Assembly (NCBI RefSeq): GCF_002289455.1
Contig: NZ_NTFS01000001.1
Location: 1 to 59,301, forward strand
Length of the DNA stretch: 59,301 bases
Direction of reading: 5' to 3'
DNA from: Brunnivagina elsteri CCALA 953
Lineage (GTDB): Bacteria; Cyanobacteriota; Cyanobacteriia; Cyanobacteriales; Nostocaceae
Both the position numbers and the translations under genes were made by a program. The notes beneath the pieces were generated by a model. It saw only the letters and a program-made list of their open reading frames with translations, was not told the DNA's origin and ran no database searches. The first letter of the stretch is position 1, and each line of letters starts with the position of its first letter. Shown piece by piece: positions 9,980 through 21,354 of the stretch.

Positions 9980-10023
9980 AAGGGCATAGAGTTTGTTTCT
10001 TGCTAGTACGGCTATTTGCCCTT
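9980..10023 (+). terminator. Putative hairpin after rlpA
   Basis: AAGGGCA (9980-9986) pairs with TGCCCTT (10017-10023) around a 30-base loop, followed by ATTGTCTTTG. It lies 22 bases after the rlpA stop. The long loop and weak T tract make it a modest terminator candidate. Confidence 0.35.
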
Positions 10024-14794: not shown

Positions 14795-17443
14795 GTGACA
14801 TCTCCAGACATCGTAATTTGGTTACAGGAACGCACACCTTTAGGGATTTTAGCGGATGAGGTGTTAGGTGCGATCGCATCTGAGATGACTGAAAAAATCG
14901 TTCCTTCTGATACAGAAATAGTAATTGAGGGTACTTTACCGGAAGCTCTTTACATAATTAAACAAGGACGAATTGAAGCAACTAGCAATAACTCCAAAAA
15001 TCCAGCTTTGTGCTGTGGTTTGCTTCCTGGTACGGCAATTAACCTCAAGGAATTACTTTTAAATGAAATTGCCCCAAGTACAATTAAAACCCTGACTGAA
15101 TGCCACTTATGGGTTGTTTCTGCGGCAAAATTCGCTGAAATCACGAATCAATATCCAGAAATTGCTCAATTTGTATCTCGTTTGCTGGCAGCAGAACTGG
15201 CACAATTAGCTTCAGCGTTCACATATGAGCAGGAACGTTCTTTGGAATTGCGTCCTTATCTTGTTACGAAAGCGCAACGGGGTATAGTCGGTTCGAGTCG
15301 TTATGCAGTAAAGTTACGCGAACAAATTCGTGAAGCTGCAAATAATCGCAAATCGGTGTTAGTTTTTGGTGAACCTGGTTTAGAAAAAGATAATATTGCG
15401 GCTTTAATTCATTATGGTTCAGCTTCCCGTCGCGAACCAATTATTAAAATTAATTGTGGAATTTTACAAGTAAGTGGAGCCGATTTATTTGGTAGGGTTG
15501 GTGGTAAACCGGGATTGTTGGAGTATTTGGGAAATGGGACTTTAATTCTGAATAATATTCAAGAATTGCCAAAAGAGTTATTACCCGCAGTGACAAATTT
15601 ACTGCAAACAAACACTTTTACACCTGTTAGCCGTTCTGGTGAAACAGTTGCAGAATCTCGCATTAGTAATGTCCGCATAATTATTGTATCGGAAAAGACG
15701 ATTTCAGCAATTAAACGCAGGATTGAATATGCAATCAAAGTACCACCTTTAAGGGTGCGAAAGGCTGACATTCGCTCACAAATCGAATATTACATTAGTT
15801 TGTATGCCCGTTCTAGGGGTTTGACAAAACCTGCTGTGACACCAGAAGCCTTACGTCGCTTACAATCCTATGATTTCCCTGGCAATTTGAAGGAATTAGA
15901 AAGTCTTGTCGAGCGTGCGATCGTTCAAGCTGAAAATAATCGAGAACTCACTGAGGAGATTTTTTGGGCTGTAGAAACGAAGAAAAAACGGTTTCGCGTT
16001 AATTTGCTGAATATTTATCCAGGTTTACGGAGATTTTTACGCAGTGATTGGTATCCTGACAAAATTAATTATGGAATTACGACAATTGGATTTGCTTTTA
16101 TTCTTGTAGTGTTATTTTTAGGACCACAAACAAGGGATAAAAACTTTGTTTTGAATATATTTTGGGATTGGTGGTGGGCTGGATTCCTGTTTCTATTTCC
16201 CTTTTTAGGACGAATTTGGTGTGCATTTTGTCCGTTTATGATTTATGGTGAAATTACCCAGAAGTTATCTTTAAAATTGTTTCCTCGCCATTTGAAAAAG
16301 TGGCAAAGGGAGAAAGCAGAAAAGTGGGGTGGATGGTTTCTTTTTGGTTTCTTTTCTTTAATTTTTTTGTGGGAAGAACTTTGGAATCTGGAAGATACGG
16401 CTTATCTTTCGGGTTGTTTGCTGCTATTAATTACTGCTGGTGCGGTTCTATTTTCTGTCCTGTTTGAACGGCGGTTTTGGTGTCGTTATTTATGTCCAAT
16501 TGGTGGGATGAATGGGTTATTTGCTAAGTTATCGATGACTGAATTAAGGGCGCAGCAAGGTATTTGTTCGGCAACTTGTACTACCTATCAATGTTATAAA
16601 GGTGGTGTTGCAAAAGGTGAGGGAATGGAAACAAATGGTTGTCCTTTATATTCCCATCCCGCACAGTTGCAAGATAACCGCGATTGTGTTTTGTGTATGA
16701 CTTGTTTGAAAGCATGTCCCCATCGTTCGGTTGAGTTTAATTTGCGTCCTCCGGGAATTGAATTGTGGACAACTCATGTAGCTCGAAGTTATGAAGTTGC
16801 ATTATTATTTTTACTTTTGGGTGGGATATTTCTCCATCGCTTACCGGAAATGAAAGTTTGGTTGAATTTTAATTTTAATTTAAGTTTTGATTTAAGTTTT
16901 GATTTAACTAATTTTTGGCAACATTTAGTTTTATCTTTATTGGCTTTGATGATTCCAGTTACTGTACCTTTTATTGCTTACGGTTTAATGTTGGGGTTTT
17001 GTTGGTTGAAGAATAAAATAAATAAGAACATAAACAATCAAAACCGCAGATTAACGCGGATGAACGCAGATGGAACATCTATTTCTATTGCTGTTGTTAA
17101 GGATAATTTAATTAAACCTAGAAAATTTGTGGAATTGTCTTATGGCTATTTACCATTAGTATTGGGTGGTAATTTAGCCCATTATTTACGTTTAGCATTG
17201 GGAGAAGGTGGAAAAATTTTACCTGTGGCTTTTACTACTTTTGGTTTGAATGGGAGTTCTCTGCCTATATTGGTAGCACATCCTGCTGTGATTAGTTTTT
17301 TGCAGGGAATAACTTTGGTTTTTGCTGTTTTATGTTCGGTGATATTAACTCAAAAAATTGCTCGTCAATCTTTGCGGAGTTTATTATTACAGCATCTAGC
17401 AATAATTATTTTAGGAGTTAGTATGTGGGCTATTATTGTGTAG
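14795..17443 (+). CDS. cNMP-binding / degenerate sigma54-activator AAA+ / membrane polyferredoxin fusion
   Basis: 882 residues, GTG start with AGGGGAAAG ribosome binding site. Residues ~10-135: cNMP-binding (CAP_ED-like) domain. Residues ~160-390: an NtrC-type AAA+ domain, but with a changed Walker A (GEPGLEKD, 192-199), Walker B acidics replaced (LILNNIQELP; normally LDEIGELP) and no GAFTGA loop. Residues ~420-880: membrane part like NapH/NosR/CcoG, with several helices and cysteine clusters CxxCP (C476/C479), CxxxCP (C563/C567), C591/C595/C600 and a ferredoxin-like CxxCxxCxxxCP (C631, C634, C637, C641). Cyanobacteria lack sigma54, so the AAA+ part has probably become a signal-transfer domain. 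I infer a membrane redox protein controlled by a nucleotide. A short repeat-derived insert (RRLTRMNADG) is at 751-760. Confidence 0.8.
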   Translation: MTSPDIVIWLQERTPLGILADEVLGAIASEMTEKIVPSDTEIVIEGTLPEALYIIKQGRIEATSNNSKNPALCCGLLPGTAINLKELLLNEIAPSTIKTLTECHLWVVSAAKFAEITNQYPEIAQFVSRLLAAELAQLASAFTYEQERSLELRPYLVTKAQRGIVGSSRYAVKLREQIREAANNRKSVLVFGEPGLEKDNIAALIHYGSASRREPIIKINCGILQVSGADLFGRVGGKPGLLEYLGNGTLILNNIQELPKELLPAVTNLLQTNTFTPVSRSGETVAESRISNVRIIIVSEKTISAIKRRIEYAIKVPPLRVRKADIRSQIEYYISLYARSRGLTKPAVTPEALRRLQSYDFPGNLKELESLVERAIVQAENNRELTEEIFWAVETKKKRFRVNLLNIYPGLRRFLRSDWYPDKINYGITTIGFAFILVVLFLGPQTRDKNFVLNIFWDWWWAGFLFLFPFLGRIWCAFCPFMIYGEITQKLSLKLFPRHLKKWQREKAEKWGGWFLFGFFSLIFLWEELWNLEDTAYLSGCLLLLITAGAVLFSVLFERRFWCRYLCPIGGMNGLFAKLSMTELRAQQGICSATCTTYQCYKGGVAKGEGMETNGCPLYSHPAQLQDNRDCVLCMTCLKACPHRSVEFNLRPPGIELWTTHVARSYEVALLFLLLGGIFLHRLPEMKVWLNFNFNLSFDLSFDLTNFWQHLVLSLLALMIPVTVPFIAYGLMLGFCWLKNKINKNINNQNRRLTRMNADGTSISIAVVKDNLIKPRKFVELSYGYLPLVLGGNLAHYLRLALGEGGKILPVAFTTFGLNGSSLPILVAHPAVISFLQGITLVFAVLCSVILTQKIARQSLRSLLLQHLAIIILGVSMWAIIV

Positions 17444-20193: not shown

Positions 20194-21354
20194 TCAGGTT
20201 TTTAAACCTGAGAGGGAAGCGACGCGTGCGGTTTTAACCGCAGTGGTAATTAGTCCAATAGAGCGTCTAATTAGTCGGACTTTGTTTTTACTGAATTGAC
20301 CTAATCTTTTCCAGTTTTGGTCGGAGACAGAAACTTGTTTTTCGGTATCACCACTTACCCAACCTCTATATGTTTTATTGCCTTGGGTGGCTTCAACATA
20401 ATCACCTTTTCTAAAACCATGCCTCGTAACCGTTCCACCGTATTTACGGCGAAGTTGCCGGACAGAAGATTCTGTCCCGGCACATTCGCGTCTGTTTCCA
20501 CCCTTAGACGGAGCCATTAAATGTAGTTGCCTACGACTAATTGGAGGACGACTTAAAATCGTAAATTGAGAATTAGTAATAGTTACATTACCTTCCCATG
20601 ATGCACCATGATTTTTAATTCCTTCCCATGTTTTGTATTGAACAAATTTAGAACAAGCAAGTGTAACAGCATCTACTGCATGTGTCTCTGGGATTTGCAA
20701 AGACTTGTCAGATTTTTCTTTATGTAATCCCAAGTATTTACGAAGATTTGATGTTTCCCAACCTTTTTTTAATTCCACATTAGCTAGGTTTGATAGTCGG
20801 TTAATTTGATATCTTTGTCCAACCATGACAGGGCTAAAACTCTTACTTCCTCGTGCTTCAACCTCTTCAACAACAATTGTTTTTACTGGGTAAATTTCAC
20901 ACAATAAAGAGATTGTGCGGTATTCCAAATCTTTGTTAGCTTGAATACTTGGAGGTAGTTTGCAGCTACGACGATTATCAAATCTAGCTTGTCGATGGCT
21001 ACGTTTACTGAAAGATAATTTTCGGTTAATTCGTCTACCACGTCTACCACCGCGCATCATAGACCGTTGTTTCATTCTGTCTTTAACTGTTTTAAATGGA
21101 AGGGCTAAGTGCAACATTTGTAGTGTGTATTTTTGAGATTGAACCGCTACACCAGAAAACATTTTACCTGGGTCTAATCCAATTACAATCTCTTGTGTTT
21201 GAGTATCAGATGCTTTATTGACTAACTGAACATAAAAAATACCTAACTTATTGAAATTACCAATTGCCTTCCCTTCTTTAATCCAACGTCTAGCGCGGCT
21301 AGGCTTTGTTGGCATTAATGGTGTATTGTCTGCTAAAATTACTGGTACTCGCAT
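20194..21354 (-). CDS. isrB: IsrB-type RNA-guided nickase homologue (RRXRR/PLMP, RuvC, no HNH)
   Basis: 386 residues. An N-terminal PLMP motif lies at 12-15 (RRXRR domain). RuvC-I follows at 57-62 (IGLDPG, D61), then the Arg-rich bridge helix (~98-129), RuvC-II 'TIVVEEVEARG' (E163/E164) and RuvC-III 'ETHAVDAVTLA' (H225, D228). Only ~60 residues separate RuvC-II and -III, so no HNH domain is inserted. That defines IsrB as opposed to IscB/Cas9. IsrB uses an omega-RNA to direct nicking of one DNA strand. The C-terminal ~140 residues would be the RNA/target-motif contact region. No TnpA transposase is nearby. The last codons encode two palindromes (20197-20216, 20228-20243) that probably mark the element's end. 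Confidence 0.88.
   Translation of the reverse strand: MRVPVILADNTPLMPTKPSRARRWIKEGKAIGNFNKLGIFYVQLVNKASDTQTQEIVIGLDPGKMFSGVAVQSQKYTLQMLHLALPFKTVKDRMKQRSMMRGGRRGRRINRKLSFSKRSHRQARFDNRRSCKLPPSIQANKDLEYRTISLLCEIYPVKTIVVEEVEARGSKSFSPVMVGQRYQINRLSNLANVELKKGWETSNLRKYLGLHKEKSDKSLQIPETHAVDAVTLACSKFVQYKTWEGIKNHGASWEGNVTITNSQFTILSRPPISRRQLHLMAPSKGGNRRECAGTESSVRQLRRKYGGTVTRHGFRKGDYVEATQGNKTYRGWVSGDTEKQVSVSDQNWKRLGQFSKNKVRLIRRSIGLITTAVKTARVASLSGLKT
20197..20245. repeat. Palindromes spanning the isrB 3' end
   Basis: TGCGGTT/AACCGCA (about 20228-20243) and CTCAGGTTT/AAACCTGAG (about 20189-20208) are two perfect short palindromes. Together they cover the last 16 or so codons and the stop of isrB. They are probably the right-end structure of the element that carries isrB, read through as protein. 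Confidence 0.5.

Follow-up and report, generated by a model that had tools for sequence, protein, structure and literature searches.

An NtrC-type AAA+ domain with altered catalytic motifs, fused to a NapH-like membrane iron-sulfur module in cyanobacteria and Desulfobacterota

The AAA+ domain of bacterial enhancer-binding proteins typically carries the P-loop GESGTGKE. It was previously reported that 29 cyanobacteria lack both sigma54 and its activators and that two regulators, VpsR and YplP, are without a proper GAFTGA (PMC3162934). A second set of proteins, NapH and MauN (TIGR02163, PF12801), combines membrane CxxCP/CxxxCP motifs with ferredoxin-type Cys sets. Here, we describe a cyanobacterial protein in which an AAA+ domain of the first kind lies between a CNBD-fold domain and a membrane iron-sulfur module of the second kind, a module that we presume to be comparable with NosR and CcoG as well. 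The parts are known, and the architecture is undescribed: we found no description of this fusion family in the open-access literature (PubMed Central). The fusion proteins appear to form a family of regulated electron carriers that has so far gone undescribed.

Domain layout and the altered AAA+ core

We analyzed a window of 59,301 nucleotides from Brunnivagina elsteri CCALA 953 (GCF_002289455.1, contig NZ_NTFS01000001.1, positions 1 to 59,301, forward strand). The fusion gene occupies 14795..17443 on the plus strand, as do all of the features within it, and encodes 882 amino acids with full-length orthologues. Its GTG start is supported, since the orthologues share the same first residue (MTSPx). 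An earlier note on this DNA, made from the letters alone, had proposed an NtrC-type AAA+ domain between a nucleotide-binding domain and a NapH/NosR/CcoG-like membrane iron-sulfur part. Pfam and NCBIfam gave the order CNBD-fold domain, NtrC-type AAA+, lid, and NapH-like membrane Fe-S module. The CNBD-fold domain spans residues 36 to 120 (14900..15154; PF00027 cNMP_binding, 38.9 bits against a cut-off of 27.5), the AAA+ core residues 164 to 304 (15284..15706; PF00158 Sigma54_activat, 57.5 bits against 20.2), and the lid residues 320 to 383 (15752..15943; PF25601 AAA_lid_14, 48.6 bits). NorR/NifA/NtrX-type NCBIfam matches at 129 to 404 fell far under their curated cut-offs.

Aligned with NtrC-type proteins, the AAA+ core is altered in several catalytic features. 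The GAFTGA loop is missing, with DLFGR-----VGGKPG in the window protein against ELFGYEKGAFTGAVGSKPG; the deletion site is DLFGRVGGKP, residues 231 to 240 (15485..15514). Walker B reads LILNNI (residues 250 to 255, 15542..15559), where N253 and N254 replace the D-E pair. The loss of GAFTGA and of both Walker B acidic residues thus stands as it was first read. Walker A reads GEPGLEKD (residues 192 to 199, 15368..15391). Judged from the letters, the P-loop lesion that matters is Gly197 to Glu, because enhancer-binding proteins normally have GESGTGKE at this site, and the Asp after the Lys is a mild change. We found two further losses in the alignment: a deletion has removed the arginine-finger segment (FRxDLYYRL), and Glu300 stands in place of the Asn of sensor I. 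Both positions were assigned as in PspF and NtrC.

An AlphaFold model of residues 1 to 400 had a mean pLDDT of 79, with the AAA+ core mostly between 75 and 92. With this model, the best Foldseek matches in the PDB were NtrX, DmpR, NtrC1, FlrC, PspF, and NifA, and VpsR was also matched; NtrC1 (3m0e) gave a TM score of 0.84 on the target and an rmsd of 2.1. The predicted structure is therefore an NtrC-type fold, and profile searches detected no second ATPase domain in the window protein. Sequence, conservation, and model agree with the earlier reading of an inactive NtrC-type AAA+, and as predicted the pocket is an NtrC pocket stripped of its catalytic residues.

The NapH-like module covers residues 419 to 690 (16049..16864), as delimited by TIGR02163 (53 bits), PF12801, and hydropathy. 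Pfam found two Fer4_5 copies in the membrane part (38.7 bits), and the NapH/MauN match at 469 to 649 reached 53.2 bits, below the curated family cut-off of 213. The resemblance to NapH that had been proposed is confirmed at this level. The module has a membrane CxxCP motif (C476/C479, 16220..16234), a membrane CxxxCP motif (C563/C567, 16481..16498), a first soluble Cys set (C591, C595, C600, and C616; 16565..16642), and the ferredoxin motif CVLCMTCLKAC (C631, C634, C637, and C641; 16685..16717). These 12 Fe-S-type Cys residues are invariant in all 69 aligned cyanobacterial members, and the module is a membrane polyferredoxin in the broad sense. It very probably carries electrons on bound Fe-S clusters, putatively 4Fe-4S, and quinone is its putative membrane partner. 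Residues 691 to 882 (16865..17440) form C-terminal membrane helices by hydropathy, with E804 and Q837 invariant. A PDB sequence search with the membrane part returned short ferredoxin matches only. The full-length AlphaFold model is poor in this part (mean pLDDT, 58.5), and we used that model only for the CNBD.

The N-terminal domain had been called a cNMP sensor, and it was suggested that a cyclic nucleotide, acting through this domain, may gate the whole protein, which would be a redox enzyme or sensor. The beta-roll fold is indeed present, both by Pfam and by a structure match of the full-length model, and the sequence matches are PKG and PKA regulatory subunits. However, the phosphate-binding cassette is not conserved. 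HMMER aligns the Glu and Arg of the PKG cassette with Leu and Ala; with the register shifted by two residues, a cassette E86-x8-S95 appears, again with no Arg in the window protein. Among the 52 sequences of the window type (group A, below), E86 is found in 30, and position 95, Ser in the window protein, is Arg in 11. The cassette residues are likewise not conserved in group B. Two Desulfobacterota relatives (L163 and L164) keep a canonical GE...PR cassette, which favors gating. Yet the CNBD is absent from group C and from L102, L106, L129, and L122, where the AAA+ and Fe-S parts are kept; no CNBD remnant was found upstream of the CNBD-less members. Thus, a cyclic nucleotide is not an obligatory input. 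Neither the cNMP sensor nor the gating is supported, and we regard cyclic-nucleotide gating as improbable.

Conservation and gene neighborhoods in cyanobacteria

We searched 292 cyanobacterial genomes from 116 genera (E <= 1e-40; groups A, B, and C pooled) and found fusion homologues in 73 genomes and 47 genera. A tree of the cyanobacterial members, of which 69 were aligned with the window protein included, contains three groups. The window type makes up group A (52 rows). Group C is nested within A, lacks the CNBD, and comes from a single family with genomes of 2.3 to 3.7 Mb. Group B is a separate branch of 9 rows (support, 100/100), and it includes a second fusion member in the same genome as the window (41%), in which the P-loop is intact and Walker B is D-N.

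The altered P-loop, GEPGL(E/G)KDN, is kept in groups A and C, where Lys198, Asp199, and Glu300 are each found in 60 of 60 sequences. This demonstrates that the altered pocket is maintained and is not decaying. Within group A, N253 is found in 50 and N254 in 49 of the 52 rows. The altered motifs are conserved phylum-wide, which, as judged from the alignment, is far beyond chance.

These data also bear on whether ATP or ADP occupancy of the pocket, and not hydrolysis, controls the redox module. Such a switch would fit group B, where all 9 sequences have GxGKT and 8 of the 9 have Walker B D-N, the invariance of Lys198, the third P-loop Gly that 10 of the 52 group A sequences retain, and the ATP-bound structure of a Walker-B-substituted NtrC1 (3m0e). 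However, Mg-ATP binding is unlikely in group A, because the window protein has Glu in place of Gly197, has Glu300 at sensor I, and has lost both Walker B acids. Nucleotide may still be bound without hydrolysis, but we regard a nucleotide-occupancy switch as improbable.

The AAA+ core and lid are retained in every aligned cyanobacterial member, whereas the CNBD has been lost repeatedly. In group A, column conservation averages 0.85 in the NapH part, 0.71 in the AAA+ core, and 0.51 in the CNBD. The protein is probably an electron carrier of the membrane, equipped with an AAA+ module that serves in assembly, docking, or relay without hydrolysis. As a NapH/NosR/CcoG-type polyferredoxin integral to the membrane, it would belong to the electron-transport chain and move electrons between the membrane, where the path probably leads to the quinone pool, and a soluble partner. 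The cytosolic NtrC-derived core and lid would serve in non-hydrolytic self-assembly, partner docking, or conformational relay, and the divergent CNBD-fold domain would be an optional input domain. In other words, the AAA+ remnant presumably regulates or assembles the redox part. We favor the electron carrier because the 12 Cys residues are invariant and the NapH part is the most conserved, because group B, with the same layout, sits in a redox and sulfur gene setting, and because the same fusion with a dead Walker B recurs in Desulfobacterota.

The main rival is a redox sensor, in which the membrane Fe-S part would sense quinone or a low-potential redox state, with the AAA+ remnant signaling to another protein, such as a kinase or a sigma70-type RNA polymerase. 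Regulators that lack GAFTGA, VpsR among them, work without sigma54. VpsR, noted along with YplP in PMC3162934, was among the matches of both the PDB sequence search and Foldseek. However, the Pfam scan found no DNA-binding domain (HTH) in any fusion member scanned, the protein is membrane anchored, and conservation peaks in the electron-transfer part. Thus, the electron carrier is the most likely reading, and a sensor with a protein output is rather unlikely.

Gene context counts against the electron carrier in group A: the 52 loci share no neighbor, and context names no partner. The poor full-length model of the membrane part and the low score of the module relative to the NapH cut-off also weigh against this reading. 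Electron transfer by group A is deduced from the redox module alone. A TrkA/ion-channel gene lies downstream of the fusion gene in the window and is near the group A gene in only 5 loci. We also observed an RRXRR-family protein in the window (20194-21354, minus strand; PF14239, 386 aa), possibly IsrB/IscB-like, and found no Rfam RNA between positions 10000 and 25000.

For group B, the neighbors are sulfur and redox genes, which suggests that this group serves sulfide or thiol redox metabolism and points to a sulfide-handling role. cysK lies close downstream of the group B gene on the same strand at four loci (L009, L107, L108, and L112) and on two plasmids, and Rieske, rhodanese, and NifX-like genes are found nearby, joined in some cases by psbA or DsrE genes. 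In the same genome as the window, on an 8.6-kb contig (L137, contig C208, 108-7861), the group B fusion shares one direction with Rieske, NifX-like, rhodanese, and cysK genes, a NUDIX-like gene, and other small genes that are thiol/permease-like. Because clusters of this kind are also found on plasmids, it appears to be a mobile sulfide-response cluster. Loci in two other genomes (L109, 1028-13627; L110, 330-14465) have HdrA-, HdrB-, and HdrC-like genes together with NifX-like, rhodanese-like, and DUF2214 genes and the group B fusion. Public annotation calls the group B proteins "nitrogen assimilation regulatory protein" or "cyclic nucleotide-binding domain-containing protein." These names, and "sigma 54-interacting," can hide redox proteins in cyanobacteria.

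Relatives in Desulfobacterota and the presence of sigma54

We searched 148 genomes of Desulfobacterota, the phylum of Malonomonas rubra and of bacteria of the sulfate-reducer type, with the membrane part and found matches in 22. Thirteen complete or nearly complete proteins have the order CNBD, AAA+, lid, and NapH-like module; a contig end truncates a fourteenth (L154). GAFTGA and the Walker B D-E pair are both missing from all 13 fusions, although sigma54 is present in 10/10 tested Desulfobacterota genomes with a fusion. An FHA domain precedes the CNBD in two of the Desulfobacterota proteins (L156, 5984-9148; L158, 4766-7972), and two others (L149 and L152) have GAF domains. Input domains have therefore been exchanged. 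In a tree of the NapH part, the cyanobacterial members form one clade (100/100), and a single clade of the fused proteins from both phyla is mildly rejected (AU p 0.027, with long branches present). Loss or repeated fusion may explain this distribution.

The earlier note had stated that cyanobacteria lack sigma54. This is true of the genome studied here, in which a profile search did not find sigma54 (PF04552), but two Nostocaceae genomes (G009 and G020) have rpoN. The orthologue of the window protein in both is still the dead version without GAFTGA. The proposal that the AAA+ degenerated owing to the cyanobacterial loss of sigma54 is thus refuted, because sigma54-bearing Desulfobacterota and two rpoN-bearing cyanobacteria keep the dead version. 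Since the Desulfobacterota fusions are dead despite sigma54, the dead AAA+ goes with the fusion and not with the loss of sigma54. The same comparison applies to a decaying relic of a sigma54 activator. The missing sigma54 of the host genome would agree with a relic; however, the altered motifs are conserved phylum-wide and are also found in sigma54-bearing genomes. With the catalytic changes conserved across cyanobacteria, we rejected this explanation as very improbable.

We made several observations on the cyanobacterial sigma54 genes themselves. In the two Nostocaceae genomes (L126, 3787-7820, on the G020 chromosome; L125 from 4507 and G009:C334:15545-16015), sigma54 adjoins an NtrC-type response regulator with an intact GAFTGA. 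L126 also has a neighboring histidine kinase, and its rpoN shows core-binding and DNA-binding domains and a weak match to the activator-interacting domain. This gene is on an 11.6-Mb contig, so contamination is unlikely for G020. A fragmentary sigma54 DNA-binding domain with an open frame of 207 aa was seen in a further genome from this family (G168:C1:411956-412339), and one cyanobacterial genome with no detectable sigma54 (G050) has a PAS-AAA+-Fis NtrC-type regulator with GSFTGA (L127, 5092-6453, minus strand).

Comparison with known systems

The fusion is a clear example of a pseudo-ATPase that has taken on a new role, in sigma54-less cyanobacteria and in sigma54-bearing Desulfobacterota: the AAA+ core of a transcription activator is kept in a probable membrane electron-transfer protein, and the substitutions at its catalytic residues are conserved. 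More tentatively, these proteins may form an undescribed, widespread class in which the dead AAA+ would be an oligomeric membrane collar that positions or gates polyferredoxin modules, with exchangeable inputs (CNBD, FHA, and GAF), and in which the sulfide-linked group B would connect Hdr-like or cysteine metabolism with the quinone pool. We hold this broader picture to be possible, with the odds against it.

The window protein shares the AAA+ fold and lid with the enhancer-binding proteins NtrC, NorR, and NifA (PF00158), which are its best HMM and fold matches, but it lacks their GAFTGA, Walker B acids, arginine-finger segment, and HTH and is membrane-anchored. It has the loss of GAFTGA in common with VpsR and other NtrC-type regulators of this kind, in which no contact with sigma54 is expected; however, VpsR is soluble and binds c-di-GMP (PDB titles), whereas the C terminus of the window protein is a membrane Fe-S module. 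It shares with NapH and MauN the membrane motifs and the ferredoxin-type Cys sets, but it scores far under their cut-off and has extra C-terminal helices and the N-terminal fusion to CNBD and AAA+. Finally, a homologous redox module, with neither AAA+ nor other cytosolic domains of this type fused to it, is found in stand-alone 4Fe-4S membrane proteins from Deinococcus, haloarchaea, and Desulfobacterota.
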